IMG/VR virus record: IMGVR_UViG_3300017706_002460
Coordinates: 1 to 20,859 of that record
Length of the DNA stretch: 20,859 bases
Source: a virus
Direction: 5' to 3' (one strand)
Positions within the stretch are counted from its first letter, which is position 1. Each line of letters begins with the position of its first letter. Made by a program: the position numbers and the translations under genes. Below, piece after piece: positions 4,362 through 20,449 of this stretch. Under the pieces are notes generated by a model that saw nothing but the letters and a program-made list of their open reading frames with translations, was not told the origin of the DNA and did no database searches.

Positions 4362-5783
4362 TTAGTATATTAATTTATGTGGTAAAACTCTTTTTTCATG
4401 TTCAGTATCTTTTAAAAATGAATATTTTTTTCTTGGTTTCCAAGTTGTAAACAATTTTTCAGTAGCTTCAATTATTTTATTACTCATTTTTTCAGAGGTA
4501 AACCCAGCTTCATCTCCTAAGGCCCATTCTTGACCTAATTTTCCAATTCTTTTTCTTTCCTCATTACCCATCTTATATAATTTCATCATTTGTTCAGATG
4601 CATCTTTAGCATCAATGTGATCATCATATATGTAAGGAGTTTGAGGTGAACCAACAATACCACTTGTTTTAGGATAAACAGGAAATGCCCATTCTCCATG
4701 TTTTTTATATTTTCCGTGGTGGTTTGAAGGAATTTCTGAAGTAAATTCTATCCATTTCCCATTTTCATCTTCAAAACGCATTTGATCTTGCATTCCACCT
4801 GTAACAGTAGCAATAAATGGTGTTCCTGTTAACATTGCTTCTGTTAAAGATAACCCCCAACCTTCAGCATTAGATAATTGTACTACACCATCTGCTGTGT
4901 TATACAACATATCCATTTCTTGGGTTGATAGTTTATGGTCTAAAATTCTAACATTATTTGTTCCAAAATATTCAATTACAGCTGGTAAATCTGTTCCTGG
5001 GTCAAAAACTGCTTCTGTTTTTAATGTTAATAGACATTTTGATCTTTCATTTTCTGGTAATTTATCCATAAATAATTTCCAAGCCATTATAGTATCAGGA
5101 ATACATTTTCTTCTAATATTTCTAGAATTAAATAATAAATGAAAATTTAAATCTTTTGGTAATTGTAAATTAGTTTTAAATTTATTTAGTTCTTCATTAT
5201 TATCTTCTATAATACCAAATATTTTATTATTTAATCCATGAGGCACATATTTAAATATTTTATCTTTACCTTTATCCCCTAATACTAATTTATTAATATT
5301 AACTGTTTGTTTTGATATTCCTAACAAAACATCACAGGATTCATAATATTCTTTATTGTACATGGGAGCAGGATAATTATCCCAAATATTAAGATAAATA
5401 ATAGGGATGCTTTTTCTTATTTCATCCTCAGCACTAAATAACCAAGCAAAATATCTTGGATCTGTTATTAACATTATAGCATCTGGATTTTCTCTTTTTA
5501 TTACTGTCCTTAGTAAATCCATATCCCCATATCCTGCTGCAGGGTATAAAGAAACACTAGCATCTAATACTTCACTTTCCTTTGCTACATCATTATCCAT
5601 TATAACTTGTTTTCCTTGTTCAGGATGTTCAACAGCTCCTGCTATTTGAGCCCAATTATAACGATGGCATGTATTTAAAATAGTTTCTCTTCCTACCTGG
5701 GCAACGCCAGAATGAACTCTAATATCATCAGTAATAAGAAGAATCTTTTTTCTGTCTTTTTTTGGAATATAACCTTCTTTCAT
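4362..5783 (-). CDS. GT-B glycosyltransferase, GT4-like
   Basis: A 473-aa GT-B protein. The N-terminal domain starts after a basic stretch (IPKKDRKKILLITDD) and has the loop VHSGVAQVGRE. A second strand carries PDAIMLITDPRYFAWLF. The donor domain has LLFNSRNIRRKCIPDTI (a GT4 sugar-phosphate region with Arg/Lys), DGVVQLSNAEGWGLSLTEAM with the E-x7-E pair, and GTPFIATVTGG. It lacks membrane segments. It is the first gene of the glycosyltransferase run, 13 bp after the ribbon-helix-helix-like gene. The leader GATAATTAAAATTAAATAAC is A/T-rich without a Shine-Dalgarno sequence. It is clearly distinct from the following GT-B protein, so the two probably add different sugars or act on different acceptors. 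Confidence 0.88.
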   Translation of the reverse strand: MKEGYIPKKDRKKILLITDDIRVHSGVAQVGRETILNTCHRYNWAQIAGAVEHPEQGKQVIMDNDVAKESEVLDASVSLYPAAGYGDMDLLRTVIKRENPDAIMLITDPRYFAWLFSAEDEIRKSIPIIYLNIWDNYPAPMYNKEYYESCDVLLGISKQTVNINKLVLGDKGKDKIFKYVPHGLNNKIFGIIEDNNEELNKFKTNLQLPKDLNFHLLFNSRNIRRKCIPDTIMAWKLFMDKLPENERSKCLLTLKTEAVFDPGTDLPAVIEYFGTNNVRILDHKLSTQEMDMLYNTADGVVQLSNAEGWGLSLTEAMLTGTPFIATVTGGMQDQMRFEDENGKWIEFTSEIPSNHHGKYKKHGEWAFPVYPKTSGIVGSPQTPYIYDDHIDAKDASEQMMKLYKMGNEERKRIGKLGQEWALGDEAGFTSEKMSNKIIEATEKLFTTWKPRKKYSFLKDTEHEKRVLPHKLIY

Positions 5784-5796
5784 TTGTTATTTAATT

Positions 5797-5991
5797 TTAA
5801 TTATCAATTTCTAGATTATTGTGATTATGTATTTTTTTTCTAAAATCTTCATCTGTAAGGTATAAATGAATCGCTCTATCAGACAATTTCTGAAATGAGA
5901 ATTTACGTCTTACACATTCAATTTTAAAGTTTTCAAATAAATTACTTTTTACTTTTACACTTGTAAGTGTCATGATTTTTTTATCAGTCAT
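5797..5991 (-). CDS. Small ribbon-helix-helix-like protein
   Basis: A 64-aa protein starting MTDKKIMTLTSVKVKSNLF. The short beta-like TSVKVKS segment, the helix NLFENFKIECVRRK, a turn (FSFQ), and a second helix KLSDRAIHLYLTDEDFRKKI give the beta-alpha-alpha pattern of ribbon-helix-helix DNA-binding proteins; the basic charge fits. The frame is open further upstream to 6162, but that part only shadows the nuclease C-terminus in another frame. I therefore choose ATG 5991 (5973, MTLTSV, is an alternative). It is preceded by a 43-bp gap containing the palindrome TATACGTATA. It could be a regulator of the downstream sugar genes; target and role are inference. Confidence 0.6.
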   Translation of the reverse strand: MTDKKIMTLTSVKVKSNLFENFKIECVRRKFSFQKLSDRAIHLYLTDEDFRKKIHNHNNLEIDN

Positions 5992-6018
5992 AGTTTTAAT
6001 TATTGGTTTATATTTGTC

Positions 6019-6028
6019 TATACGTATA
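6019..6028. promoter_or_regulatory. Palindrome TATACGTATA upstream of the RHH-like gene
   Basis: A perfect 10-bp palindrome in the 43-bp gap (5992-6034) between the nuclease stop and the ribbon-helix-helix-like gene, 27 bp before ATG 5991. Ribbon-helix-helix dimers usually bind palindromes, so it could be an autoregulatory operator. In AT-rich DNA such a palindrome also arises by chance, and no second copy is nearby. Confidence 0.25.
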
Positions 6029-6034
6029 TGCGGA

Positions 6035-6985
6035 TTATAAGTTCTTACCAAGGACATTACATAGTTTGTCATCTTCCTTAAATGCGCAGAAATGACAGTT
6101 CCATTTTGATGGTTGTGGAATGTGAAGTGTTTCTTTGTATCCGTTATAGTCAAATGCTTCATTTATAAATTCATTTAATATTTTTGTTGCTTTATTAGTT
6201 TTATTTTTACCAGAAGCTGGTGAAAATATTTGTATTGGTTTTTGAGGATATTCTCCTTCTTCATATACTTTTCTTCTAACAATTAGGAACTCAATATCAA
6301 TACTTTTTTCTGCTAATCCAAACTGTTCTGCAAAATATTTTTTATATAAAATCAATTGGAATTGTTTTTCTTCATCTTTTTTAGCATAACTATTCCAACC
6401 CTTAGTACTAGTTTTTATATCAATTATCTGAAATGTGTCTGTTGGTTCGTGGTATAATACAACATCTAAAAAACCATTGTATATAACGTTTTTATACGCG
6501 TTATTAGGAACAATAGATATAGGTATTTCACAACCTACTAAAAACCATCCTTTTTTACTAAAATATTTACCTTTATTTTTTTTAAAATATCTTAAAATTT
6601 TAACTCCATCTTGATAAAATTCTCTTATTTCTTCTGATCCACTAAAATGTTGATTTTTGTTTTTTTTATATTGAATTAAATATTCTTCCCTTAGTTTTTC
6701 TTCTAATAATTCTTCAATATTTTCTCTATCAGCTGCCGCACCACTTTGCTCATACATTACATCTAAATAATGTTGCATAACTTCATGAAAAGCAGTTCCA
6801 AATACTGTATGAATACTAGGACTATGTCTTTTATGGCCTTCTTTATACTGAAGAGCCCACTTTTTAGGACAACTTCTAAACATAGATAATTGTGAATAAG
6901 AAATATTTTTCTGAAACCCAAAATTAATAGGTTCAGGTTTATGATTTCTTATAATTTTTACAATTGGGGGAATTTTTCTAGCCAA
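6035..6985 (-). CDS. PD-(D/E)XK nuclease with probable 4Fe-4S cluster (RecB/Cas4/AddB-type)
   Basis: A 316-aa nuclease. It starts with the motif YSQLSMFRSCPKKWALQY (30-47), then GTAFHEVMQHY with His67. The active-site core is GFLDVVLY (Asp174) and IIDIKTS (Asp189, Lys191), followed by QLILYKKYF (Gln210, Tyr214). Cys39 plus a C-terminal trio, Cys297, Cys300 and Cys309 in CHFCAFKEDDKLC, matches the Fe-S arrangement of Cas4 and AddB nucleases. Proteins of this type cut or resect DNA ends. It lies downstream of the replisome genes, 4 bp from the DUF1599-like gene, suggesting recombination, repair or host DNA breakdown. No helicase domain is fused to it. Confidence 0.85.
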   Translation of the reverse strand: MARKIPPIVKIIRNHKPEPINFGFQKNISYSQLSMFRSCPKKWALQYKEGHKRHSPSIHTVFGTAFHEVMQHYLDVMYEQSGAAADRENIEELLEEKLREEYLIQYKKNKNQHFSGSEEIREFYQDGVKILRYFKKNKGKYFSKKGWFLVGCEIPISIVPNNAYKNVIYNGFLDVVLYHEPTDTFQIIDIKTSTKGWNSYAKKDEEKQFQLILYKKYFAEQFGLAEKSIDIEFLIVRRKVYEEGEYPQKPIQIFSPASGKNKTNKATKILNEFINEAFDYNGYKETLHIPQPSKWNCHFCAFKEDDKLCNVLGKNL

Positions 6986-7549: not shown

Positions 7550-7984
7550 TTATAATTTTTTTATTAATTTTTTAACTTCTTTATCACTTGTGCCTAATTT
7601 AATAAGAATTTCCTTAATATCCTCCTTATTTAAAAGATTTACATATTCATTTGCTTCTACAAAACTACATTCAAAATATTTTACCATAGGTTCTAATATT
7701 TCTTTTGGGTTTTGTTTTGTTTTTGATTTAATGTATCTCAAAAACATTTTTTTTCTAGGAAGCATTTCACAATAAAAATTGTAAATTCCTTTTTTATCTG
7801 TTGGAGAGAATTTTTGTGCTAAATTAGCTATTTCTATATAACCTTGGTACATTGATACAAATCTATGAACCATATAAGCATTAAAACTCTCCCAAGCAAT
7901 TTCTTCAAAGCTATCTAAACTTGACTTTTTATCAGTTAATTCATTTAGCCATTCAAAAATATTTTTAGGATTTAATAAGGACAT
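7550..7984 (-). CDS. 62: Clamp-loader small subunit, gp62-like
   Basis: A 144-aa protein matching the pattern of T4-type gp62, the non-ATPase subunit that joins the gp44 tetramer to load the sliding clamp. Seen are the helix WESFNAYMVHRFVSMYQ (31-47), NFYCEMLPRKKMFLRYIKSK (basic, the most conserved gp62 segment) and a C-terminal helix set NKEDIKEILIKLG. It is shorter than T4 gp62 (187 aa) and closer in size to the compact gp62 of marine T4-like phages. Its start overlaps the 81-aa gene by 20 bp, and gp44 lies one gene upstream, as expected for the complex. Divergent family, so the call rests on motif and context together. Confidence 0.8.
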   Translation of the reverse strand: MSLLNPKNIFEWLNELTDKKSSLDSFEEIAWESFNAYMVHRFVSMYQGYIEIANLAQKFSPTDKKGIYNFYCEMLPRKKMFLRYIKSKTKQNPKEILEPMVKYFECSFVEANEYVNLLNKEDIKEILIKLGTSDKEVKKLIKKL

Positions 7985-8216: not shown

Positions 8217-9143
8217 TTATTTTAATATTTGGGGTTTAATTGTTTCTATTATTTTTGACATTAAAGCCATACAATTGACTTCTTTATCTATTCTAAAATT
8301 TGATTGATATGAATATTCATTCACGTAAAAGGCAATCATACCTTCTTTTCCTGGTGCGTATTCAGATGAGTTATCATATAAAAACCTATATAATCCCTCA
8401 AAATCCTTTACATTAGAATCTGCTACTATTTGTCTAATTGTTCTCCAATTAGGTTTTTTTAATTTTAATTCTTCTAATATTTTATTTTGATAATTACTTT
8501 CTATTAATACACCACTGTCAAGTTTTAGTACGTTATCTACCGTAGATACCTGTATAGTATTAAGCATTTTACGTACATCAGGGTAATTATTATTAGTAAT
8601 AGTTTCTAAATCACTTACGCTACATTTGATGTTTTCTTTTTTAGTAACTTTTATTAAATGGTTAATAATTTTTAATTTATCTGGTGGTATTATTTTTAAT
8701 GTTTGGCATCTTGATTGTAAGGGATCAATTATTCTTTCTAAATAATTACAAGTTAATATAAATCTAGTTGAACGTGAAAATGTTTCAATTACATTTCTTA
8801 ATGATGCCTGAGCCATTATAGTTAAAAAATCTGCTTCATCTAAAATAACTATTTTTAATGATTTAAAAGACATAGTACTAGCAAACCCTGATACTTTATC
8901 TCTAATAGTTTCAATACCTCTTTCATCAGAAGCATTAATATATAATAAATCACAATTAACATTTTTAGCAATTAATTTAGCCAAAGTTGTTTTTCCTGTT
9001 CCTGCAGGACCATAAAATAATAAATTTTGGATATCATTTTGTGATATATAACTTTTAATAGTATCTTTAATACTTTTATTTCCTACATAATTATCTATAT
9101 TAGTAGGTCTATATTTTTCAACTAGTAAGCTATGATTTTTCAT
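8217..9143 (-). CDS. 44: Clamp-loader AAA+ ATPase, gp44-like
   Basis: A 308-aa AAA+ protein of the RFC/gp44 family that opens and loads the sliding clamp with gp62. It starts MKNHSLLVEKYRP, the usual beginning of this family. Walker A is GPAGTGKT (45-52), Walker B is VILDEADF (Asp102-Asp105), sensor 1 lies in RFILTCNY, and the arginine-finger box SRC is at 144-146. The C-terminal helical collar follows. T4 gp44 is 319 aa, so it is full length. The ATG lies only 6 bp downstream of a CGTATATT box; if that box is a promoter the transcript would be almost leaderless. No other Met or usable start precedes the conserved LLVEKYRP. Confidence 0.95.
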   Translation of the reverse strand: MKNHSLLVEKYRPTNIDNYVGNKSIKDTIKSYISQNDIQNLLFYGPAGTGKTTLAKLIAKNVNCDLLYINASDERGIETIRDKVSGFASTMSFKSLKIVILDEADFLTIMAQASLRNVIETFSRSTRFILTCNYLERIIDPLQSRCQTLKIIPPDKLKIINHLIKVTKKENIKCSVSDLETITNNNYPDVRKMLNTIQVSTVDNVLKLDSGVLIESNYQNKILEELKLKKPNWRTIRQIVADSNVKDFEGLYRFLYDNSSEYAPGKEGMIAFYVNEYSYQSNFRIDKEVNCMALMSKIIETIKPQILK

Positions 9144-9456: not shown

Positions 9457-11079
9457 TTACATTCCCATCATTGGGTTTACTGGTTCATTATTATCATTAT
9501 TTTTAGGTTCGTCTACTACTATACATTCTGTAAGTAATACTGTACCTGCTACTGAAGCTGCATTTTCAAGTGCTGTTCTAGTAACTTTAGTGGGATCAAT
9601 AATACCTTCTTTTTTCATATTAACCGTTTTATCAGTTTTAATATTATACCCATTCCAAGTATTTATTTTTCCTTCTATTAAAGAACGACCTGTCATTTGA
9701 GCTTCAACAGGTGCATAACCAGCATTTGTAAGTATTTGTTCAAAGGGTTTACCACATGCCTTATAAACAATATTTGATCCTATACATTTACTACAAGATG
9801 GTATTGCTTCTCTTGCATATAGTAAAGCAGCTCCCCCACCAGGTACAATACCTTCTTCAATAGCGGCTTTGGTAGCATGTAAAGCATCATCAACTCTATC
9901 TTTCTTTTCATTCATTTCTGTTTCAGTGTAACCACCAACATGAATAATAGAAACTCCTCCAGCCATTTTAGCTAATCTTTCTTGTAATTTTTCAGCTTCA
10001 AAAGGTGTAGTTGCTTTATCAATTTGAGTTGTTAGTTGTTCTAACCTTTCTTGAACATCTTTTTCCTCTCCTTTACCATCAATTATAGTTGTTTTATCTT
10101 TTCCTATAGTTACTGTACGAGCTTCTCCAAACCATTCCCAAGAAAATTTATCAAGTTTCATTCCTTTATCCTTATCAAATACTTGACCTCCAGTTACAGT
10201 AGCAATATCTTCTAATATTAATTTTCTTCTTTCACCAAAATCTGGGGCTTTGACAGCAGCTACTTTAATTGTGCCTCTTGCTTTATTAACAATTAATGTT
10301 GCTAAAGCTTCACTATCTACATCTTCAGCTATTATTAATAAAGATTTATTAGTATTAGAAACAGCTTCTAACATTGGTAATAAGTCTTTAACTTTAGAAA
10401 GTTTTTGATTTAAAACTAAGATATATGGGTCTTCTAAAGTACAAGTCATTGTGTTGTTATTTGTAACAAAATAATGAGATAAATATCCTCTATCAAACTG
10501 CATCCCTTCAACAGTTTCAAGATAAGTATCACCAGTTTTAGATTCTTCAATATGAACTACACCTTCAACACCTACTTTATCCATTGCTGTAGCAATTAAT
10601 TTACCAACTTCTTCATCATTATTTGCTGATATTGTTGCTATTTGTTCTAATTGGTCTTCTGATGAAATATCTTCTGATATTTTTTCTCTAAGATTTTCTA
10701 CAGCCTTTTTAACTGCTTTATCTATACCTCTTTTAATTTCAACAGCATTTGCACCATTAGCTAAATGTTGTAAACCATCATTAATCATTTCTCTAGCTAA
10801 TAAAGTAGAAGTAGTTGTTCCATCTCCTGCTTTGTCTGCTGTTTTAATAGAAGCTTCTCTTACTAAATTAACTCCTAAATTTTCTACAGGATCACTTACT
10901 GATATATGTTTAGCAACAGTTACACCATCTTTAGTTGATATAGGTGATTCATGTTGTCTTTCAATAACTACATTTCTACCATTAGGTCCTAATGTTGATA
11001 CTACAGCATTTGCTAATATATCAATACCTTTTACTAATTTTTTTCTTCCCTCAGGGCCGAATTCTATAATTTTACTCAT
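9457..11079 (-). CDS. groEL: Chaperonin GroEL (Hsp60), full length
   Basis: A 540-aa group I chaperonin (E. coli GroEL is 548). All domains are present in order. The equatorial domain has STLGPNGRNVVIE and the nucleotide motif GDGTTTSTLLARE, with Asp86 equal to the E. coli catalytic-magnesium Asp87. The apical domain has MQFDRGYLSHYFVTN, keeping the substrate/GroES-binding aromatics, and LLPMLEAV. The hinge and second equatorial half follow with RVDDALHATKAAIEEGIVPGGG, including the Asp equivalent to Asp398. The tail is short (NPMMGM) rather than a long GGM repeat. Oddities are SWEWFG where TLEDLG is usual, and a Cys-containing loop SCSKCIGSN. It overlaps groES by 8 bp, and should form the folding cage with it for phage proteins. 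Confidence 0.98.
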   Translation of the reverse strand: MSKIIEFGPEGRKKLVKGIDILANAVVSTLGPNGRNVVIERQHESPISTKDGVTVAKHISVSDPVENLGVNLVREASIKTADKAGDGTTTSTLLAREMINDGLQHLANGANAVEIKRGIDKAVKKAVENLREKISEDISSEDQLEQIATISANNDEEVGKLIATAMDKVGVEGVVHIEESKTGDTYLETVEGMQFDRGYLSHYFVTNNNTMTCTLEDPYILVLNQKLSKVKDLLPMLEAVSNTNKSLLIIAEDVDSEALATLIVNKARGTIKVAAVKAPDFGERRKLILEDIATVTGGQVFDKDKGMKLDKFSWEWFGEARTVTIGKDKTTIIDGKGEEKDVQERLEQLTTQIDKATTPFEAEKLQERLAKMAGGVSIIHVGGYTETEMNEKKDRVDDALHATKAAIEEGIVPGGGAALLYAREAIPSCSKCIGSNIVYKACGKPFEQILTNAGYAPVEAQMTGRSLIEGKINTWNGYNIKTDKTVNMKKEGIIDPTKVTRTALENAASVAGTVLLTECIVVDEPKNNDNNEPVNPMMGM

Positions 11080-11374
11080 TGTCTTCTTTTTTTAATTTTG
11101 CTAATATTTGATTTTCAGGTCCTACAAAATAATCATCTCCATCATGTTGTAATTTAGTAAATCCTTGTGTAGGTAATACAACAATATCTCCTATTTTTGA
11201 TTGTGTTTCAATAAATGTTCCTGATATTGTGTGTTGTCCAGGTCCTACTGCTACAACTTCTCCATGTTCATTTTTATCTTTTCCCATATCTGGTACTACG
11301 ATTGAGCCGTATTTAGCTTCTTCAGCCTCTATTGGTTTTACAATAACGGCATTAAATAGTGCTTCTAATTTCAT
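11072..11374 (-). CDS. groES: Co-chaperonin GroES (Hsp10)
   Basis: A 100-aa GroES (usual length 95-100). The beta-barrel start LFNAVIVKPIEAEEAKYGSI is followed by the mobile loop with GSIVVP, where IVV replaces the IVL tripeptide that docks on GroEL. The core HGEVVAVGPGQ and KIGDIVVLP are clear, as is the end FVGPENQILAKL. Unlike T4, whose gp31 is a remote GroES replacement working with host GroEL, this protein is a recognisable GroES and sits directly before its own groEL with an 8-bp overlap. It overlaps the 98-aa gene by 4 bp. Translation of the three genes is probably coupled. Confidence 0.96.
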   Translation of the reverse strand: MKLEALFNAVIVKPIEAEEAKYGSIVVPDMGKDKNEHGEVVAVGPGQHTISGTFIETQSKIGDIVVLPTQGFTKLQHDGDDYFVGPENQILAKLKKEDNE

Positions 11375-11667
11375 AATTTAGTAATTTCTGTTAATGTTTG
11401 TAATTCTTTTTTAATTTTATTCCATTCAGATAAATATTCTTTAACTGAATTGTATTGTTTATCTCCCCTGTTAAGTTTTGCTTTCATAATAGAATGTAGG
11501 GCTTGTCCAAAATCAGAATAATGCCCAATTGGCTTTTCATAATTTTTTCCTTCACTACCTTTTTCTAAATATTTAGCTTGTGGAGTTATTACCTCATATG
11601 CTGTGTAGCAATGAGAGTCTTTGCCTATGAAATAAGGCTCTAGTAAATCATCTTTGATTATAGTCAT
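11371..11667 (-). CDS. Hypothetical protein, 98 aa, upstream of groES
   Basis: No family recognised. The N-terminal half, LLEPYFIGKDSHCYTAYEVI, and GKNYEKPIGHYSDFGQALHSIMKAKL look like a small alpha/beta fold with an amphipathic helix, and the C-terminal half is a Lys/Glu-rich helix (SVKEYLSEWNKIKKELQTL). There is no membrane segment. It is the first gene after the promoter-like motif at 11693-11722 and overlaps groES by 4 bp (ATGA-type junction), so it belongs to the chaperonin transcript. A housekeeping role unrelated to folding is possible. Confidence 0.75.
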   Translation of the reverse strand: MTIIKDDLLEPYFIGKDSHCYTAYEVITPQAKYLEKGSEGKNYEKPIGHYSDFGQALHSIMKAKLNRGDKQYNSVKEYLSEWNKIKKELQTLTEITKL

Positions 11668-11692
11668 ATAACTTAATTTTTATTATTGATGT

Positions 11693-11722
11693 AATATACA
11701 AAAAATTTATAAATAAACCAAC
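11693..11722 (-). promoter_or_regulatory. Promoter-like motif before the 98-aa/groES/groEL run (GTTG-N18-TGTATATT)
   Basis: On the minus strand GTTG (11719-11722) is followed after 18 bp by TGTATATT (11693-11700). It matches the motifs before gp44 and folE in seven of eight bases of the downstream box and three of four of the upstream box. It lies in the 72-bp gap 11668-11739, 25 bp before ATG 11667. The spacer also contains TATAAATT, near the T4 late box. Confidence 0.5.
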
Positions 11723-11724
11723 CT

Positions 11725-11733
11725 AAGGGCGTA
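11725..11733. promoter_or_regulatory. Candidate operator AAGGGCGTA near the groES/groEL promoter
   Basis: The 9-mer AAGGGCGTA on the plus strand lies 2 bp upstream of the GTTG box of the chaperonin promoter-like motif. The same 9-mer occurs on the minus strand inside the hsp20 promoter region at 12220-12228. I found no third copy, and GGGCG is rare in this AT-rich window. A shared regulator of the chaperone genes is possible but unproven. Confidence 0.3.
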
Positions 11734-11739
11734 TTTTGG

Positions 11740-12162
11740 TTAATTTATTTTTAAAACTTTTGGCATAGCTTCTTTTGCAAATGGAATAGTCACAATTAGT
11801 AAACCATCATTAAAATTAGCTGTTGCTTTTTTAAGGTCGAACTTAGTTCCTACTTTATATCCTAAATTAAAAGAACGTTTTGCAATTCCTCTATGGATAT
11901 AATTTCGGGATTTTGGATCAGGGGTTTTTCCCTTATCATAATTAAAGGTGATCATGTCTCCTTCTAACTTAACTTCAATGGCTTCTTTAGGAATGCCAGT
12001 ACAAGCTAACTCAAAGGTTAAACCTATATCATCTTCAAAAATATTAATTGGGTATTGTTGTTTGGCTTGTGCAGCCGGAACGAATTGGGTGTTTGCTTCG
12101 AATAAATTTCGAAATAATAGGTCAAACGGATGGTGTGACCTTTCTAAAAAATGTGTACTCAT
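11740..12162 (-). CDS. hsp20: Small heat shock protein, Hsp20/alpha-crystallin family
   Basis: A 140-aa small heat-shock protein that holds unfolding proteins for refolding by ATP-dependent chaperones. The N-terminal arm HHPFDLLFRNLFEAN precedes the alpha-crystallin domain (about 37-128), with INIFEDDIGLTFELACTGIP, a LEGDMITF strand, and the family signature ATANFNDGLLIVTIP. The C-terminal VLKIN provides the I/V-x-I-type anchor used in oligomer assembly. Hsp20 genes are known in T4-like marine phages. It has its own 77-bp leader with a TATAAATA box and lies between the clamp gene and the groES/groEL run. Confidence 0.93.
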   Translation of the reverse strand: MSTHFLERSHHPFDLLFRNLFEANTQFVPAAQAKQQYPINIFEDDIGLTFELACTGIPKEAIEVKLEGDMITFNYDKGKTPDPKSRNYIHRGIAKRSFNLGYKVGTKFDLKKATANFNDGLLIVTIPFAKEAMPKVLKIN

Positions 12163-12239: not shown

Positions 12240-12986
12240 TTATACATATGTTGAATCTTCTTTTCTTACCAGATAATATAAAGTTTTTATGTCTTCTGAT
12301 TGGAATTCTAACTTCATAAATCCATCTTCAGTTAAAGAAAGTTTACCACTTTCTAAATCTTTATTTGCTGATAATATATTTTTAAATGAGTCTGAATTAA
12401 ATGGTAGTTTTAATTCATTTTTAATTTCTACATTTTCATCAATGATATATTTAATTTTATTTGAAAAGTTATTTAAATCCCCAAAAGCAAACTCAACAAC
12501 TTTTCCTCTATCAGGATCTTCTTCAGTACTAATTAATACACTATTAATATCAGTTAATGCACTTTTTGCCTTAATAAAATTATTTACAATTTCAGAATTT
12601 AATCCTATAATTACATCATATTTATTTGGGAATTCTATTTCACGTTCTTTAGGTACTAATAATGTATCAGCTAATGAATATGTTACATTAAAGGACATAT
12701 CTTGTATACGTAATTTTGAAAATACTTTATGTTGTTTTTCTAAAGTAAGTAATAGTTCACCATTAGTAACAGATATTAGTTTACTTAGTTGTGATGTATC
12801 AAATATTGCTATTTCGCTATCTTCAATAGGAGAGGTATTGCATATTAAATCTCCTGCTATATCTTTAGCTTCAGATACAAAACTAATACTTAATTTACCT
12901 TCTTCAGTTAACCATCTAACAGATTGAACTAACCCATTTAAATAATACTTTGAGATTATTGATTGTAATTTTGATTTATTTATCAT
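12240..12986 (-). CDS. 45: Sliding clamp (DNA polymerase processivity factor), gp45-like
   Basis: A 248-aa gp45-type clamp (T4 gp45 is 228 aa). It trimerises around DNA and tethers the polymerase. The sequence shows the repeated strand-rich pattern: MINKSKLQSIISKYYLNGL, EIAIFDTSQLSKLISV (inter-domain region), DVIIGLNSEIVNNFIKA, and the conserved C-terminal strand pair FMKLEFQSEDIKTLYYLVRK, which closely follows gp45 ends. It lies 2 bp after polymerase part B, so it is in the same transcript. In T4 the clamp gene is next to 44; here hsp20, the chaperonin genes and a 90-aa gene separate them. The call rests on the fold pattern and the neighbours. Confidence 0.85.
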   Translation of the reverse strand: MINKSKLQSIISKYYLNGLVQSVRWLTEEGKLSISFVSEAKDIAGDLICNTSPIEDSEIAIFDTSQLSKLISVTNGELLLTLEKQHKVFSKLRIQDMSFNVTYSLADTLLVPKEREIEFPNKYDVIIGLNSEIVNNFIKAKSALTDINSVLISTEEDPDRGKVVEFAFGDLNNFSNKIKYIIDENVEIKNELKLPFNSDSFKNILSANKDLESGKLSLTEDGFMKLEFQSEDIKTLYYLVRKEDSTYV

Positions 12987-12988
12987 AT

Positions 12989-13918
12989 TTAAAATTTAAA
13001 AAATTTATTTCTGTGAGGATTTAAACTTAATGACCAACCTAAATCATTATAAAATCCTTCTAATTTGTTTAATAAAATACTGTCGAATACTTTTTGTCTA
13101 TCAGCATATTTCTCAATGAATGTATGAATTTGTTTTGGTATATCATAGTCTAGAAAAGCAATTGCTTCAATTCTATAAGGATTGTTTTTTAAATAAATCC
13201 ATTTAATTTTTTCTCCTTGTGTTATATAACTATACTTTTTATCTAATTTCCAAAATCTTAATAAATCATTGTAAGCAATAGCTGCTTTAACAGCTGCGGG
13301 TGCTCCTTTACCTACTAAAGAAAACATTTCTCCTGCTCTAGCTTTACGTTCAGTAAATTTATTTAATTTTTTTACTGCTTGGGGGTTACCAATTTTTTCT
13401 AAAGGTATTTTTCCACTTAATATTTTATTTCTAAATTCTAATAATTGAGCATCTATTTCTGATTTTGGTATTCCTTTAAGTACTTGTTCTAAACAACTTT
13501 TAAAAAATTTACCAAATACTGGTGGGAAATTAGCTTTTTTAAATTCTAAACCCTTTACATCCAATGTTTCATTTTCAATACCTTCCTGTTTAGTAATCCA
13601 TTGTGCATATCTTCTTGTAGCTCTAAAATAAGCTGATCTAATTACACATTCAGTTTTCATCTCTAATCTATGAGAAGAAACATTAAAGCAGTCTTTAGCT
13701 AATCTATCATAATCCTCAGTTATAATATCTTGATATTTAAGTGCTTGTTCTTCTAAAACACTATCCCTTTCTTTATCTGACATTTTATCAAAATTAGGGT
13801 ATAAATATCTTAATAAAGGTTCTGCATTAAAGTAATTAGAATCTGTATCAACATAAGCACAATAATTTGTATCACCTGGATCGCAAATCCACCATGGGGT
13901 ATCTTCTAAATGTTTCAT
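12989..13918 (-). CDS. 43B: DNA polymerase gp43, C-terminal part (palm motif C, thumb)
   Basis: A 309-aa C-terminal portion of a family B replicative polymerase. Motif C, AYVDTDSNYF, has Asp24 and Asp26, one of which is a catalytic metal ligand. Further on, KKYSYITQGEKIKWIYLK is the KKxY-like thumb-side segment, and the C-terminus ends RNKFFKF, resembling a clamp-binding tail. Together with part A it totals 914 aa against 898 for T4 gp43, so nothing large is missing. Its ATG overlaps the part A stop by 4 bases (ATGA at 13915-13918), so translation could be coupled and the two chains could assemble. Alternatively the break is a one-base frameshift (see findings). Confidence 0.9.
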   Translation of the reverse strand: MKHLEDTPWWICDPGDTNYCAYVDTDSNYFNAEPLLRYLYPNFDKMSDKERDSVLEEQALKYQDIITEDYDRLAKDCFNVSSHRLEMKTECVIRSAYFRATRRYAQWITKQEGIENETLDVKGLEFKKANFPPVFGKFFKSCLEQVLKGIPKSEIDAQLLEFRNKILSGKIPLEKIGNPQAVKKLNKFTERKARAGEMFSLVGKGAPAAVKAAIAYNDLLRFWKLDKKYSYITQGEKIKWIYLKNNPYRIEAIAFLDYDIPKQIHTFIEKYADRQKVFDSILLNKLEGFYNDLGWSLSLNPHRNKFFKF

Positions 13919-15732
13919 ATTTTACCTTTAATTACTTTGTTCATGTGTCTATTAGCGCATAAAGCACTTTCTTGTATAATACGCTGCCCACTTAATGTAA
14001 TTGCTTCAGATAACAATACATTACCATATCTAAACGCACCTAAAGCAGTTGCTCCATATAAACTATTTAATAAAATTTTCATAGTATATTGTTTCATGTG
14101 ATAAGAAGCACCTAACTCTTTATTTCCTGATTTAAATGCTTTTTTCATTTGGTTCTTATATAAAACTCTTTCATCAAACCATTTATTTAAAATTGTAGAT
14201 AATACAGACTCATGATCTGTTTTAAACATTACTCCATTAGCTGAAATAGCCCATTTATTTTCTTCAATAATTTCAATTAAATCTCCTATAGCTATTTTAG
14301 TACGTTTACGTTTAGAATTTTCAATTAATATTTCTTCTTTAGAATCTTTTGCTTTTAAATCATTTAACCCTAAACGATTATTTCTATCATCAGCATCTAA
14401 AATTCTTCCTACCATTGTTTCTTTACCAATATTAATTGTCATAATAATTGAAGGATATAGTGAGGTTAAATCTTCATCAAACATATAATTATATAATCCA
14501 GCTTGGGGGCAAAACAAATAACCACCAGCATAGGATATTTGATTTCCTTTTGCATCCCGTTTTACATAAGGATTTACATCTTTTGGAGGTGGGATTATTT
14601 CTTGACTTAATAAATAAGCTGAAATTGCCCCATCTTGGGTTTTTGTATTTGCGTATACTTCTTGGTAATTATGTTTTCCTTTATGAGCTAAATTATAAGT
14701 TAAAGCTAAATAACCTAATTTTTCATCTAATAATTTTAAAATCTCAACATCAACAAAATTATATTTAATAAATTTATTTATGTCAGATTTAAATAAGTCA
14801 TCAAGATTACCTTCATATTCAACTTTATTTACTCCAACATATTTTTCTCCAATAGCATCTAATCTCATTGATGGTTCATCCGCCCAGCTATATTTTTTAT
14901 GTAAACACATATAATCTAAAGATTCAACACCTACTATTTGAAGATATTGACCTCCATTTCTTCTATTATTATACCAAGGAGTTGGTCTTACTATCCCAAT
15001 TGGGGATAAATAATTCATAGCATCTTCAACTCCTATTACATTACACATTCTATAGTATAAATAAGGAATATCAAAATAATCACTATTCCACCCAACAATA
15101 ACATCAGGATCAATATCCCTAAACATTTCCCCAAAAACTAATAATAACTCTTCTTCTGTTTTACAAGGAATTATTTCTCTACCATTTTTACTTATAGTGT
15201 GGTTTAATTGATTTTCTTCATCTAAGATAACAATACCCCATTTAGGTTTTCCTTCTTTTGCCTGTTTATTATACCAAGCAATAGAAGTAATTCTTTTAGG
15301 AGCTGATTTAATATATTCAACAGTTAAAGCATCTCCCATTTCACATTCAATATCAAAAAATAATTCTTTATGAGTAGTAGATGGGGTGTCATCAACACCA
15401 TACTTTTCAATTAAATATTTTTGGTGTGCAGGCATATCATGCCAATGTAAATTTGGTGTATTATTTTGAAAATATTGACTGTCTGTATTATTTGTGTATT
15501 TATAGTTTGATATTCGTTTTAAATATTCCCCATTTAAGCCCCTTGCAACATGGTTATCTCTATCACACTCTACATATGCTATATTATCCCAAACATCTAA
15601 TTCATAACCTTTATCAGTCCAAAGATGTATTAAATGTTGATTTTTCTTTAATTTAAAAGGTAAATTTTTAAATGCTGGACTTTGAGGGTGATATTTACTA
15701 AAACTTTCTGCAAATATCTTTTTATACATCAA
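13915..15732 (-). CDS. 43A: DNA polymerase gp43, N-terminal part (exonuclease, palm motifs A and B)
   Basis: A 605-aa N-terminal portion of a T4-type family B polymerase. The proofreading exonuclease has Exo I FDIEC (Asp127, Glu129), Exo II VIVGWNSDYFDIPY (217-230) and Exo III KYNFVDVEIL (Tyr330, Asp334). The polymerase palm has motif A DLTSLYPSI with Asp427, and the fingers have motif B KILLNSLYG (Lys558, Asn562). It stops at ...NKVIKGKI, before motif C, so it cannot be a complete polymerase alone. The start overlaps the pyrophosphohydrolase gene by 11 bp. A split in T4-like gp43 is known from some Aeromonas phages, so two subunits are plausible. Confidence 0.93.
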   Translation of the reverse strand: MMYKKIFAESFSKYHPQSPAFKNLPFKLKKNQHLIHLWTDKGYELDVWDNIAYVECDRDNHVARGLNGEYLKRISNYKYTNNTDSQYFQNNTPNLHWHDMPAHQKYLIEKYGVDDTPSTTHKELFFDIECEMGDALTVEYIKSAPKRITSIAWYNKQAKEGKPKWGIVILDEENQLNHTISKNGREIIPCKTEEELLLVFGEMFRDIDPDVIVGWNSDYFDIPYLYYRMCNVIGVEDAMNYLSPIGIVRPTPWYNNRRNGGQYLQIVGVESLDYMCLHKKYSWADEPSMRLDAIGEKYVGVNKVEYEGNLDDLFKSDINKFIKYNFVDVEILKLLDEKLGYLALTYNLAHKGKHNYQEVYANTKTQDGAISAYLLSQEIIPPPKDVNPYVKRDAKGNQISYAGGYLFCPQAGLYNYMFDEDLTSLYPSIIMTINIGKETMVGRILDADDRNNRLGLNDLKAKDSKEEILIENSKRKRTKIAIGDLIEIIEENKWAISANGVMFKTDHESVLSTILNKWFDERVLYKNQMKKAFKSGNKELGASYHMKQYTMKILLNSLYGATALGAFRYGNVLLSEAITLSGQRIIQESALCANRHMNKVIKGKI

Positions 15733-16239: not shown

Positions 16240-16938
16240 TTAAATTTGATGTCCTCCATTATTAATTTTTAAACTGTCAAAAAACTCTTTTCTTGCTAAA
16301 TTAGTGTTTTGTCTAAATACACCTGATGCTTTAGTTGTTACCATACCAGCTCCTTGATGTTTTACTCCTCTACAACTTACACAATTATGTCCTGCAACTA
16401 TAGTTACTATGACACCTCTATTACCTTCAGTAATTTGATGCACAGCATTATGAATAGCTGATGTTAATTGTTCTTGTATTGCACCTCTTCTACCAAATAA
16501 TTCAACTATTCTATTTAATTTAGATAACCCAACTACTTGACCATCTTCCCCAGCTATATAACCTATATGAACTACACCACTAATTGTTTGATGATGATGA
16601 GAACACATTGATGTTAATGGAATATTTCTCTCAATTACAATTCCATCATAACCATCAGAAGGAAATGATGTAATAGGAGACATTGGAGTATATCTACCTG
16701 CCCATAAATCATTTACATATGCTTTAGCAACCCTTCTTGGGGTATCAGATGAATTTGGATCATTTTTCCAATCACAATCTAATGCATCTAAAAACTCTCC
16801 ATATGCTTTAGTAGCTTTTTCTATCATTTTTTCCTTTTGTTTATCACTTAAAGGGAAATTAGTTGCAACTCCATTTGCAAAACCTTTTTGTACAACTTCT
16901 AACTTTTCATGAATTTTAGCGTTTTTATTTTTTGCCAT
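16240..16938 (-). CDS. folE: GTP cyclohydrolase I
   Basis: A 232-aa FolE that turns GTP into 7,8-dihydroneopterin triphosphate, the first step towards 7-deazaguanine bases. The zinc ligands are visible: Cys112 and His115 in TSMCSHHHQTISG, and Cys186 in HNCVSCRGVKHQ. The substrate loop GLSKLNRIVELFGRRGAIQEQLT and the end MVTTKASGVF are conserved. The N-terminal 30 residues are a basic extension. With queC, queD and queE in the same block, it serves preQ0 synthesis rather than folate. It has its own promoter-like motif and an A/T-only leader (AACGTAAAATAAATAAAA) without a Shine-Dalgarno sequence, so it may start a separate transcript running into the replication genes. Confidence 0.96.
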   Translation of the reverse strand: MAKNKNAKIHEKLEVVQKGFANGVATNFPLSDKQKEKMIEKATKAYGEFLDALDCDWKNDPNSSDTPRRVAKAYVNDLWAGRYTPMSPITSFPSDGYDGIVIERNIPLTSMCSHHHQTISGVVHIGYIAGEDGQVVGLSKLNRIVELFGRRGAIQEQLTSAIHNAVHQITEGNRGVIVTIVAGHNCVSCRGVKHQGAGMVTTKASGVFRQNTNLARKEFFDSLKINNGGHQI

Positions 16939-16956
16939 TTTTATTTATTTTACGTT

Positions 16957-16986
16957 AATATACGAAAACTTTATTAGAAAACCAAA
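16957..16986 (-). promoter_or_regulatory. Promoter-like motif before folE (TTTG-N18-CGTATATT)
   Basis: On the minus strand TTTG (16983-16986) is followed after 18 bp by CGTATATT (16957-16964), 18 bp before the folE ATG. Both boxes and the spacing are identical to the motif before gp44. It fits exactly in the gap 16939-16986. The spacing and TTTG recall Bacteroidetes -33 elements, but the downstream box is not their TAnnTTTG. Confidence 0.5.
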
Positions 16987-17385
16987 CTATTTTAGGTAAT
17001 CTTGTATAGTTTCACTATCATCTCTCTCCCAAGGATAAATTATCCATTCATCTCCCTCATGTTCAAAGGCATATATGTTAGGTTCCAAACATGCCGTATG
17101 AGGTTTATAATGTAAGACAGCAGTAGTATAATCCTTCCAATTATCAAGAGTTACTCCACTATCACATATATCATCTACTATTAAACATTCATCAGGTTCA
17201 TAATGTTTAGGAATATCTATATATTCTAAATCTAAAATATGTGATATTAAAACAGCAGGAATTAATCCTCCTCTTTTTAAACCATGAACATATTTAATTT
17301 CTGGGTAGTTGAGTTTAATTTGATAACATAGCTTATCAACTAATTCTTCAACTTCATTCCATCCAACATAAATTTTATTATCCAT
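16987..17385 (-). CDS. Type I phosphoribosyltransferase
   Basis: A 132-aa purine/pyrimidine phosphoribosyltransferase. I start it at MDNKIYVGWN (17385), 1 bp after the nuclease stop; an ATG at 17418 would add 11 residues overlapping that gene. The PRPP motif is CLIVDDICDSGVTL (67-80), the PPi loop region is VHGLKRGGLIPAVLISHIL (33-51), and the end WERDDSETIQDYL resembles xanthine/guanine-type enzymes. It should join a nucleobase to PRPP. Its place beside folE and the queE group suggests purine recycling for the phage, with guanine or hypoxanthine as likely bases; the sequence does not decide. Confidence 0.85.
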   Translation of the reverse strand: MDNKIYVGWNEVEELVDKLCYQIKLNYPEIKYVHGLKRGGLIPAVLISHILDLEYIDIPKHYEPDECLIVDDICDSGVTLDNWKDYTTAVLHYKPHTACLEPNIYAFEHEGDEWIIYPWERDDSETIQDYLK

Positions 17386-17386
17386 A

Positions 17387-17725
17387 TTATCTTTTTCCAC
17401 CAAAATATTCTGTAGCATGACCTTCAGTTATTAATTGTTTATTTATATTTTTATCTTCTACTAATAAAGTACCTAAACATCTTCCATACTTTCCAACCCC
17501 ATGGGATTGAAGAATAAAATCCCCATCACCTAATAGTTCTATAAGTCTAGCTTTAGCAGCTAATCCTAATTTTTTTTCTTCTAAATCTCTAGTTCTTGAT
17601 TCAGGAGCATTCATGCCCATCATTCTAATCCTTACTTTTTTCCAAGTATCAAATCCTAAATCTACAAGAGCATCAACAGTATCACCATCAACTACTCTAT
17701 CTAATTTTGCGTTATATTTATACAT
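17387..17725 (-). CDS. Staphylococcal-nuclease-like (SNase) protein, cytoplasmic
   Basis: A 112-aa thermonuclease-fold protein. The N-terminal strand RVVDGDTVDALVDLG holds Asp13 and Asp15 of the calcium site. RIRMMGMNAPESR provides the catalytic Arg and Glu42. GKYGRCLGTL provides the second catalytic Arg, at 82 (counterparts of Staphylococcus Arg35, Glu43, Arg87). It is shorter than secreted nucleases and has no signal peptide, so it should act inside the host cell. It lies between the 44-aa ORF (8-bp overlap) and the phosphoribosyltransferase (1-bp gap). Host DNA degradation for nucleotide recycling is a reasonable role, given its neighbours. Confidence 0.9.
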   Translation of the reverse strand: MYKYNAKLDRVVDGDTVDALVDLGFDTWKKVRIRMMGMNAPESRTRDLEEKKLGLAAKARLIELLGDGDFILQSHGVGKYGRCLGTLLVEDKNINKQLITEGHATEYFGGKR

Positions 17726-17852
17726 TTTTTATATATTCTTTAAGTTTATCTATTAATAATAATACTTCATCTGGTTCCATAGTTACAGAGCAACATATGT
17801 TAACATTTTCTTCTATTTCCTCTAATATCTCAAGTGCTTCTTCTTTAGACAC
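17718..17852 (-). CDS. Small acidic ORF with GTG start, 44 aa
   Basis: Translated by hand. A GTG at 17850-17852 overlaps the queE stop (GTGTCTAA) and opens 44 codons ending TAA at 17718-17720, overlapping the nuclease start by 8 bp. It fills what would otherwise be a 119-bp gap. The product starts M/VSKEEALEILEEIEENVN, is strongly acidic, and ends with a helix VLLLIDKLKEYIKNV; the middle has ICCSV. It could be a small regulatory or accessory protein. Overlap at both ends fits the operon style here. No homologue recognised. Confidence 0.5.
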   Translation of the reverse strand: MSKEEALEILEEIEENVNICCSVTMEPDEVLLLIDKLKEYIKNV

Positions 17853-18627
17853 AACGTTCAGTATTAAAAGCTATAATATGAGATCTACCTGTAAATCTCC
17901 AACCTCTATCTCTTACAAAATTCATTACCTCAGGATATGATTCCATTAAACTTTCTCTAGTATCACCTGCGGGCATTGCCCAAACTTTATCATCTGGTAT
18001 ATTACATTCATTTAAAAATTCTTCTACTTCTTCTACCATAGATAAATTTTTATCTAATACTGGTTTGATATGATAATCAGAATGATACTCAATAGATTTA
18101 TTTATTGCCTCATAATTTAATCTTAATCTATTATGGGTTTTAATCATCCTTTCATCAACATCTTTTCCTTGAGGTGTTATTGCACCTAACTTTGGAATAG
18201 AATTACTAAATTTAGGACTAATAGATAATAAATTAATAGGATAATCTGTAGGGAGAAAATGAGAACCTTCTGTTTCAATAGTAATAAAAATATCTCTTTT
18301 ATGAGCAAAGTGAGTTAATTCATTTACTAATTTAGGATGCATTGTTGGTGATCCCCCAGTTAACATCATTTCTTTTATATGTGGATGTTGATCATACATA
18401 TCTATTATATCTTGAAATGAATATGTTCCTTTTTCAGGGTGAATACTTGTATACCATGAGTCACACCATCCTCCCTCACCAAAATAACATCTATGAGTGC
18501 AGCCTGTTGTTCTAACTACTATTGTTGGATATCCTTGTCTTGATCCTTCAGATTGTACTGCTGTATATACTTCTAATACTGGGATAATTTTATTATAATC
18601 TTCTATCCTTTTTAATTGTTTGTGCAT
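17845..18627 (-). CDS. queE: 7-carboxy-7-deazaguanine synthase, radical SAM
   Basis: A 260-aa QueE, which converts 6-carboxy-tetrahydropterin to 7-carboxy-7-deazaguanine (CDG). The N-terminus has YTAVQSEGSRQGYPTIVV, the usual QGEG-like substrate region. The SAM/4Fe-4S cysteines are Cys43, Cys47 and Cys55 in TGCTHRCYFGEGGWCDSWY, giving CX3CX7C instead of the usual CX3CX2C. MLTGGSPTMHP is the GGEP-like SAM motif (GGSP here), and ETEGSHF and SISPKFSNS are typical QueE segments. It follows queD after a 42-bp gap. The extended cysteine loop is a lineage variation, since non-canonical spacing is known in other QueE proteins. Confidence 0.9.
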   Translation of the reverse strand: MHKQLKRIEDYNKIIPVLEVYTAVQSEGSRQGYPTIVVRTTGCTHRCYFGEGGWCDSWYTSIHPEKGTYSFQDIIDMYDQHPHIKEMMLTGGSPTMHPKLVNELTHFAHKRDIFITIETEGSHFLPTDYPINLLSISPKFSNSIPKLGAITPQGKDVDERMIKTHNRLRLNYEAINKSIEYHSDYHIKPVLDKNLSMVEEVEEFLNECNIPDDKVWAMPAGDTRESLMESYPEVMNFVRDRGWRFTGRSHIIAFNTERCV

Positions 18628-18669
18628 GTGTTAATTTTTTAAAGTGGTTTTTCATTCACTGTTATACCT

Positions 18670-19134
18670 TTATTCAATGTAATATGCTGCATTTTTACCG
18701 TGTTCCATAAACTTAATTTTAGTAACCCTAACTCTATTATTAGTTTCAGTTTTAACAAAATTATTAAGCTTACTATAAATATATTCAGCAAATTTTTCTG
18801 CGCCAGTAGCTTCTACTTCTCTTAACTGAATAACTCCAGCTTGATCTAGTGCTTTAAATGAAACAATTCGTGGATCGTCTTTTGCTACAATTACAGTATG
18901 ATCAAACATATAATCCATCCAAGCTTTTGGTTGCATTCCATCAATAAGAGTATTAGCTCTTTTCATTCCACCAAAATCCCAAACCCAATTACGATTATCT
19001 AAATCCCCTTCAAATGTTGCTTTAAAAGAAATACCATACCCATGTAAAAATCGACAATGGGTTTCAACAGCTTTCCATTGTCTAAAACAACAACTAAAAC
19101 CATCAAATACTTTTGTAGATTGATACCTAGGCAT
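18670..19134 (-). CDS. queD: 6-carboxy-tetrahydropterin synthase-like (QueD/PTPS family)
   Basis: A 154-aa T-fold protein that should make 6-carboxy-5,6,7,8-tetrahydropterin from the FolE product. The core is THCRFLHGYGISFKATFEG, with candidate catalytic Cys27 and zinc ligand His31. MFDHTVIV carries the catalytic-Asp/His segment; EATGAEKFAEYI and KFMEHGKNAAYY are the typical substrate-binding end. The first zinc-ligand segment, normally FSAAH, reads FSCCF (13-17), and the HGH pair reads HGY, so two of three standard zinc ligands differ. It overlaps thioredoxin by 8 bp. The pathway context makes QueD much the best assignment, with metal binding uncertain. Confidence 0.85.
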   Translation of the reverse strand: MPRYQSTKVFDGFSCCFRQWKAVETHCRFLHGYGISFKATFEGDLDNRNWVWDFGGMKRANTLIDGMQPKAWMDYMFDHTVIVAKDDPRIVSFKALDQAGVIQLREVEATGAEKFAEYIYSKLNNFVKTETNNRVRVTKIKFMEHGKNAAYYIE

Positions 19135-19387
19135 TAAACCAAACTAAAATATCATTTATACTCATACCACCCCCATTTGTTCTTTTAAGTTCAGTTCCTT
19201 GCCTATCAGAAATAATTAATGTAGGTACACTTTTAACATTATATTGCTCTGTTGCTATAGCATCATAATCTGTGTTGATTTTTTTAACAGGTATCTTGTA
19301 TTGTTTTGTTAATTGTTCCATAACAGGTCCTAATAACCTACAAGGTTCACACCAAGGTGCTGTAAAATATATAATTCCTTTATCCAT
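19127..19387 (-). CDS. Thioredoxin-like protein with CEPC active site
   Basis: An 86-aa thioredoxin-fold reductant. The active site is APWCEPCRLLGPVMEQL (Cys13, Cys16), with the dipeptide EP in place of the usual GP. The cis-Pro is in SVPTLIISDRQG. It lacks the first beta strand and helix of a 105-aa bacterial thioredoxin, a normal trait of phage versions. The leader AAATAAATAAAAATAAA has no Shine-Dalgarno sequence. The protein may supply electrons to a ribonucleotide reductase (none in this window) or maintain cysteine enzymes of the block. A polymerase processivity role as in T7 is possible but unsupported. Confidence 0.88.
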   Translation of the reverse strand: MDKGIIYFTAPWCEPCRLLGPVMEQLTKQYKIPVKKINTDYDAIATEQYNVKSVPTLIISDRQGTELKRTNGGGMSINDILVWFNA

Positions 19388-19407
19388 TTTATTTTTATTT
19401 ATTTAAT

Positions 19408-19626
19408 TTATACTAATTCTTCTATTATACCTACAGCTTCAGATACTATTAATAACGTTACTGCAACACTAATGTTAAAAGGAATAAAAATATAACCTAA
19501 TATTCTTATACCAGACTTAACAAAACTGATTTTTTGATGCCATTCAGCATCAGGTAATTGTTTATTGTTTTTTAAAGCCATTTGACTTACTAATTTATTT
19601 ACTTCTTTTTCTAATTTTTTATCCAT
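19408..19626 (-). CDS. Small membrane protein, 72 aa
   Basis: The first 40 residues are polar and helical (KKLEKEVNKLVSQMALKNN). From about residue 42 comes a hydrophobic stretch, ILGYIFIPFNISVAVTLLIV, then SEAVGIIEELV: one membrane span, possibly two with the loop at PFN. It starts 8 bp before the queC stop, so it is coupled to queC, and precedes thioredoxin by 20 bp. There is no signal peptidase site that I can see. Unknown function; holin-like use is not supported by the context of biosynthetic genes. Confidence 0.72.
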   Translation of the reverse strand: MDKKLEKEVNKLVSQMALKNNKQLPDAEWHQKISFVKSGIRILGYIFIPFNISVAVTLLIVSEAVGIIEELV

Positions 19627-20449
19627 AATTTTCTAATAATTGTTTAACATGATTTTCTGCTACTTTATAATCTACAGGACCTGTTTCATCAGCATAACTC
19701 GTAGGATCAGGTCTTCCTAGTTTTATAAATGCTTCTATTCTTTCTACAGATGATGCAGATTTATAATCTGAATACCATTTGTAAGCGTTAGTTTCTGGTC
19801 TATGATAATGTTTAATTGGTTTATAAGATGTGTGAGTTCTTTTATAAACTTCATCAAAATCTAAATCTAATATTTTACATGAAGATTGACCATCTAATAA
19901 TATATCATATTTATCCCCATCTATAAAAGGTGTATAATACTTTACTTTATCAGCTTCCCAATTTCCTTGTTTAAAAGCTTCATAATCAGCATCTCTAAAT
20001 TCTTGTCTACAATCCGGGTAAATAGCATGATCACCTGCATGAATACCCATCGCAATATCTACATCACAATTTTTTTCATTTGCAATTGATAATGCTACTG
20101 CTTGAATAATTGATGAAAACATTTTATTTCTATTAGGTACAACAGTATCTTTCATATTATCTTCTTCATAATGTCCTTCTGGGACATCTTCTCCACCTTC
20201 AACTAAATTTGAATTTAATAAATCAACTAAACCATCTAGTTTTATTATTTGAAATTTTACTGTTTGATTATTTATATTTAAATAATTAACTAATTCTTGG
20301 GCTCGTTTTAATTCTATTTTATGTTTTTGACCATAATCAAAAGCAACTGCTGTTACATCATAATCATGAGCTAATAGATGGAGTAAAACTGTACTTGAAT
20401 CCATCCCACCTGATAGTGATAATACTGCTTGTTTTTTATTTATTGACAT
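19619..20449 (-). CDS. queC: 7-cyano-7-deazaguanine synthase-like (QueC), zinc cysteines absent
   Basis: A 276-aa PP-loop ATPase that converts CDG to preQ0 through an amide (ADG). SGGMDSS (13-19) is the PP-loop, followed by VTAVAFDYGQKHKIELKRA. The central segment IAMGIHAGDHAIYPDCR and the end VERIEAFIKLGRPDPTSY match QueC. However, the four C-terminal zinc-binding cysteines (SCY...CGxCxSC in ordinary QueC) are absent: THTSYKPIK and YSDYKSASSVERIEAF stand in their places. The structural zinc site is therefore lost or replaced, and activity could stop at CDG or ADG. It overlaps the upstream transglycosylase-like gene by 10 bp. Confidence 0.85.
   Translation of the reverse strand: MSINKKQAVLSLSGGMDSSTVLLHLLAHDYDVTAVAFDYGQKHKIELKRAQELVNYLNINNQTVKFQIIKLDGLVDLLNSNLVEGGEDVPEGHYEEDNMKDTVVPNRNKMFSSIIQAVALSIANEKNCDVDIAMGIHAGDHAIYPDCRQEFRDADYEAFKQGNWEADKVKYYTPFIDGDKYDILLDGQSSCKILDLDFDEVYKRTHTSYKPIKHYHRPETNAYKWYSDYKSASSVERIEAFIKLGRPDPTSYADETGPVDYKVAENHVKQLLENYG

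Follow-up and report, generated by a model that had tools for sequence, protein, structure and literature searches.

A T4-type DNA polymerase encoded by two genes cut between motifs B and C and inherited as a pair in a clade of T4-superfamily phages

The T4-type family B DNA polymerase (gp43) of an IMG/VR virus record is encoded by two overlapping genes on the minus strand of the 20,859 bases analyzed here, the whole of which we call the window. We consider it very likely, with a probability of about 0.9, that these genes specify a genuine two-subunit replicative DNA polymerase, the halves of which arose by one ancestral fission of gene 43 and have been inherited together ever since. The genes and the elements recognized in them are given below; the motifs (Exo I-III, A, B and C) were read off the translation of the window.

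13915-15732, minus strand: part A of gp43 ('43A'), with the N-terminal domain, the 3'-5' exonuclease, the first half of the palm (motif A) and the fingers (motif B)
15346-15354, minus strand: Exo I (DIE), in part A
15070-15087, minus strand: Exo II, in part A
14749-14763, minus strand: Exo III, in part A
14452-14472, minus strand: motif A, in part A
14053-14079, minus strand: motif B (KILLNSLYG), the last catalytic motif of part A
13925-13929, minus strand: Shine-Dalgarno-like AAAGG, within the end of A and 6 nt ahead of the B start (weak evidence)
13915-13918, minus strand: ATGA overlap, in which the TGA of A (13915-13917) overlaps the ATG of B (13916-13918)
12989-13918, minus strand: part B of gp43 ('43B'), with a 16-residue N-terminal extension, motif C (DTDS), the second half of the palm, the thumb and an FF-containing C-terminal tail
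13871-13918, minus strand: N-terminal extension of B (MKHLEDTPWWICDPGD), conserved across the split clade and missing from fused homologues
13838-13849, minus strand: motif C (DTDS), the catalytic motif of part B

As in a T4-type family B polymerase, Exo I-III and motifs A, B and C are all present with their catalytic residues; the gp43 homologue here comes as two ORFs and not as the single polypeptide of T4-type gp43. The Pfam domains DNA_pol_B and DNA_pol_B_exo1 are detected in part A, which also matches RB69 gp43 (E 1.1e-40). Of the 856 positions of the PHROG 262 DNA polymerase, part A covers 20-567 (E 3.9e-108) and part B covers 565-844 (E 3.6e-47), so that together they make up one polymerase with no large gap and no duplication. 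Most of what the earlier note had read from the junction holds on the minus strand: the two parts do overlap by ATGA at 13915-13918, a TAA closes the B frame two codons upstream of its ATG, the exonuclease and motifs A and B lie in part A and the DTDS of motif C in part B, the arithmetic by which one added A would fuse the two frames is correct, and no X-XXY-YYZ heptamer occurs in-frame across the last 60 nt of A. Since relatives begin with MYKN or MYRN, the true start of part A is most likely the ATG at 15727-15729 (604 aa) and not the TTG one codon earlier. Counted from this ATG, the summed length of the two parts is 913 residues rather than the 914 given in the earlier note.

Part A stops a few residues past the helix that follows motif B, and part B begins about 20 residues ahead of the DTDS of motif C. 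Because A aligns up to residue 608 of RB69 gp43 and the model of B aligns from about 606-614, the break can be placed in the turn before the motif C strand, at about RB69 residue 613; fused homologues have only a short turn at this position. The monomer model of part B (pLDDT 85) shows the fold that the palm and thumb have in the C-terminal part of gp43; compared with the PDB, it matches residues from about 610 to 903 of RB69 gp43 over 275-282 residues (Z 21; best rows with rmsd 3.0-3.5). The conserved extension of B, MKHLEDTPWWICD, is seen in the split clade and not in fused homologues. Its residues 1-10 have a pLDDT under 50 in the monomer model, which fits, without showing, a segment that requires a partner, and we regard the extension as a candidate docking element.

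Relatives of A and B were collected from IMG/VR along with MAG contigs, and 254 loci were assigned to the clade of the window. Both halves are found in 233 of these, the remainder having B only (17) or A only (4), and in all 233 the split is at the same place with not one fused. The earlier note had considered that relatives might all have a single uninterrupted gene; in the clade of the window, every locus that has both halves has them split. After merging identical proteins there are 134 distinct B proteins (some contigs yield two loci, one each from the A- and B-anchored searches), among which the distance from the stop of A to the start of B is -4 in 47, -1 in six, and 2, 9 and 16 nt in one each; in the other 78 it is at least 150 nt and reaches 3092 nt. 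Almost all clade members share the residue at which B starts, and the bases of the A-run at the junction vary between close relatives with the ATGA overlap being kept. The exact 30-base junction of the window has no match in any other IMG/VR contig, the B/clamp region has no nucleotide relative among 50,697 phage records, and the nearest phage protein to B is 35% identical. A 968-aa open frame printed for one record (L122) was rejected as a fused gene, as its DNA has stops between the halves. The B proteins of L121:2506-3549 and L123:3013-4104 are 348 and 364 aa long and, compared with the 309-aa form, contain internal insertions. MAG bins that hold contigs of the split clade were assigned to Flavobacteriales, Flavobacteriaceae, Pelagibacter and another bacterium, which may reflect binning.

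Trees were built without the junction columns from thinned or deduplicated rows (56 and 112), both excluding L202 and any locus that has a single half or in which A or B is short; three loci with very long branches (L205, L211 and L299) are in the first tree and were dropped from the second. In both, the split clade is one side of a single, long-stemmed branch supported at 100; these supports are SH-aLRT values from quick searches, and the fused rows have long branches, which leaves the exact outgroup unsure. Outside the clade lie 146 loci, of which 137 are fused, five split and four without A, the fused thus being 137 of the 142 that have both halves. Four of these five splits (L296, L297, L300 and L301, placed in neither tree) belong to the window's own clade, with B identities of 69-71%, and the fifth, L202, reads as a split intein. 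The best reading of this distribution is that the split of the clade arose in a single fission of gene 43. In the second tree, rooted on a cyanophage row for reading the ancestral state, all the deep branches of the split clade have spaced halves, usually with one particular small gene (c0, see below) between them, and the adjacent form, the window included, is nested within (40 of 93 rows adjacent, seven changes). As the deep branches are spaced and the adjacent form lies inside them, the ancestor of the clade probably had genes between A and B, the ATGA form being derived. With the break ancestral to the clade and the ATGA overlap probably a later compaction, the picture in the earlier note of a polymerase broken at an A-run is misleading.

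A break in the same turn is seen in LR756508.1, a 484-kb uncultured phage (L162:7965-15889), where other genes, about 3 kb in all, separate the halves. Its polymerase additionally has two cis inteins, one in motif B and one in motif C, with the gene break lying between them. Since LR756508 clusters with fused polymerases of the Mel-JY01 type (support 97), its break probably arose independently, in another fission at this turn. When its B half was used as query against IMG/VR, none of the 42 pattern matches was confirmed as a relative.

The 59 distinct spaced loci have 113 intervening ORFs, which fall into 18 clusters. The most frequent, c0, is a conserved protein of about 86 aa (KQSIRKG...FFRKMLKQGG; for example L155:5695-5952) that stands between the halves in 47 of the 59 by clustering and 48 by profile, and in none of 44 adjacent loci. 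It has no Pfam or PHROG match and no significant PDB fold match (best E 1.3, an absence that shows little). That c0 might be a third gene fixed between the halves was rejected, as three long records of the adjacent type hold it about 7 kb upstream of A; being kept away from the halves in these records, its position alone is no argument for a polymerase subunit. A protein of about 72-74 aa with an LDLHG motif is found between the halves in 16 of the 59 spaced loci; its weak Pfam match is far below the cut-off and was taken as chance. Cupins resembling mannose-6-phosphate isomerase occupy this place in 11 of the 59, and other intervening products include DUF2452, DUF6165 and PLP-dependent proteins, among more. 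The sole hint of a mobile element is a 145-aa SegE/GIY-YIG-like ORF between the halves in L023. The best explanation is that the intervening genes entered with or after the fission and that the ATGA form of the window lost them.

Could the two genes nevertheless yield one polypeptide? A programmed -1 frameshift at the A-run, giving a fused protein besides A, might be suspected from the short A-run and ATGA at the junction, and AAAAAAT does occur near the end of A in three of the 44 adjacent loci. However, a slippery heptamer is absent from the window and from the other 41, and frameshifting is impossible where the halves are at least 150 nt apart with genes between them, which makes this reading very improbable. 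We give an equally slight chance to joining of the halves after their synthesis, either by splicing of a group I or II intron or by protein trans-splicing of a split intein. Inteins do occur in the PolB of related phages (split in motif C of L202, cis in motifs B and C of LR756508), though recognized by eye and not by profile, and a SegE/GIY-YIG-like ORF stands between the halves of L023. Against an intron stand the 4-nt overlap, which leaves no room for one in the window, and the lack of any Rfam match in 14 sources. Intein halves are excluded in the window and its close relatives because A ends soon after the last conserved helix and B starts about 20 residues before motif C, so that the ends of both are too short to hold them.

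Several observations bear on whether the split enzyme is functional. Compared pairwise with eight close relatives, the window gives dN/dS values of about 0.09-0.11 across B and about 0.09-0.20 across the final 150 codons of A, and as judged from these close relatives both halves are under purifying selection. Among 33 split A proteins the residues of the exonuclease motifs and of motifs A and B do not vary, nor does motif C among 45 B sequences, 12 of them fused. In seven long related records (93-166 kb, without a completeness estimate), no PHROG 262 polymerase occurs besides the split pair; none has a PolA match above the cut-off, two having matches below it and five no match. Five of the seven have a T4-type portal protein, which identifies them as phages of the T4 superfamily. 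The window, at 20.9 kb, would allow for another polymerase elsewhere in its genome, with A and B decaying as a split relic, but the low dN/dS, the invariant catalytic residues and the polymerase content of the long records argue against this and render it still less probable than the preceding two readings. A sequencing or assembly indel in the homopolymer of an ordinary single gene can be practically dismissed: the record is metagenome-derived with an A-run at the junction, and a paper on the T4-like phage ZZ1 (PMC4177764) traces split genes to read-assembly errors, but the same split in the relatives, the overlap kept despite differing junction bases, the whole genes between the halves of many of them and the conserved B extension missing from fused homologues cannot be so explained. 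By these comparisons the break in the window is ancient and inherited, not an error of sequencing. Among the three readings offered in the earlier note, the two-subunit enzyme is the one retained, the slippage site and the indel having failed.

We thus return to a two-subunit enzyme, and the best reading is an obligate replicase with its halves held together non-covalently. Gene 43 would have undergone a single fission in the turn that joins the fingers-to-palm helix to the motif C-bearing strand of the palm, and the two resulting genes would have been inherited jointly across a large clade of mostly uncultured T4-superfamily phages, with other genes coming between the halves at that time or later and being lost again in the ATGA form. 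A and B would fold on each other to rebuild the palm, the aspartate of motif A (from A) and the aspartates of motif C (from B) making one active site, and the conserved N-terminal extension of B may aid docking. Assembly of the halves into one palm without a covalent bond is most likely by analogy with phage 25, for which it is reported for gp43A and gp43B (PMC2988022). B also overlaps or abuts the stop of the preceding gene (as ATGA or TAATG) in 42 of the 44 adjacent and 52 of the 59 spaced loci, and for this reason its translation may be coupled to that of the preceding gene; in the window the ATGA overlap would couple B to A such that the halves are made together. A Shine-Dalgarno-like site, however, precedes B in a minority, 17 of the 44 adjacent and six of the 59 spaced loci. 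As a bolder extension, which we think unlikely, the whole mostly uncultivated T4-superfamily lineage might replicate with an obligate heterodimeric, palm-cut gp43 whose small subunit has evolved a docking peptide specific to the clade (MKHLEDTPWWIC), with c0 as an accessory or third component, and the split might control replicase assembly as opposed to being a neutral scar.

Polymerases in two pieces are known already, as split gp43 in the Aeromonas phages 25 and 44RR and Acinetobacter phage ZZ1, and as split PolB in archaea. In Aeromonas phages 44RR2.8t and 25 the split gp43 (43A/43B) is encoded by two adjacent genes, the halves being set apart by a seg-type endonuclease or by an untranslated spacer, and the overexpressed halves of phage 25 co-purify and have polymerase activity, as described in PMC2988022. 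The window is similar in that its T4-type gene 43 consists of two neighbouring ORFs arranged in this order, and the SegE-like ORF of L023 recalls the one described there for phage 25. However, 44RR is broken between motifs A and B (43A of 498 aa ending before motif B, 43B of 391 aa, 49-nt gap), whereas the window is broken between motifs B and C, with a 4-nt overlap and no seg-type endonuclease or spacer. Unlike in the Aeromonas type, the split is also fixed across a deep clade, and in many relatives the halves are separated by metabolic and other genes, not only endonucleases. Acinetobacter phage ZZ1 is likewise T4-like with a split gene 43, though a single phage (PMC4177764). The family B polymerase PolB3 of Methanobacteriales is also made as two polypeptides, thought to derive from erratic excision of an intein according to PMC4104785; it differs in being archaeal. 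Pseudomonas phage MIJ3 has a fractured PolB with a split intein and a free-standing endonuclease (PMC6892783), and in L202:3001-7084 the break falls within motif C of PolB, the two halves being separated by a free-standing endonuclease-like ORF (5142-6110). Both resemble many of our loci in having the polymerase as two ORFs with something between them, but they have intein halves at the break, and the window and its clade have none. LR756508.1 shares the turn between motifs B and C and the intervening genes, and differs in its grouping with the fused type and its two cis inteins.

In a search of the open-access PMC literature, no description of the gp43 split of this clade was found. As far as we have seen, the new elements are an intein-free break between motifs B and C in a phage, its fixation in a deep clade and the housing of genes between the halves. 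On the two-subunit reading, a replicative polymerase can survive a cut between the two palm motifs that bear its aspartates and persist over a large radiation, with unrelated genes tolerated between its halves. The 134 distinct B proteins form a natural set which, with the fused Mel-JY01 type set against the split one, lets one ask by comparison how an enzyme makes up for being split. The clade may be missed or miscounted by gene callers and by marker-gene surveys looking for a full-length gp43.

Other replication genes accompany the polymerase in the window:

12240-12986, minus strand: likely sliding clamp, in the position of gp45 immediately downstream of B
8217-9143, minus strand: clamp loader large subunit (gp44-like), by Pfam and PHROG
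7550-7984, minus strand: clamp loader small subunit (gp62-like), by PHROG

The putative clamp is without a Pfam or PHROG match and shares 25% identity with the gene that follows PolB in Microcystis phage Mel-JY01, a phage with a gene order resembling that of the window and a polymerase of one ORF. Genes for GroES, GroEL and HSP20 (9457-12162) lie within this replication cluster, between the clamp and the clamp loader. On the other side of the polymerase, at 16240-20449, are genes for GTP cyclohydrolase I, a 6-pyruvoyl-tetrahydropterin-synthase-like protein, a radical SAM protein and QueC, neighbours that point to a 7-deazaguanine/queuosine-type pathway.
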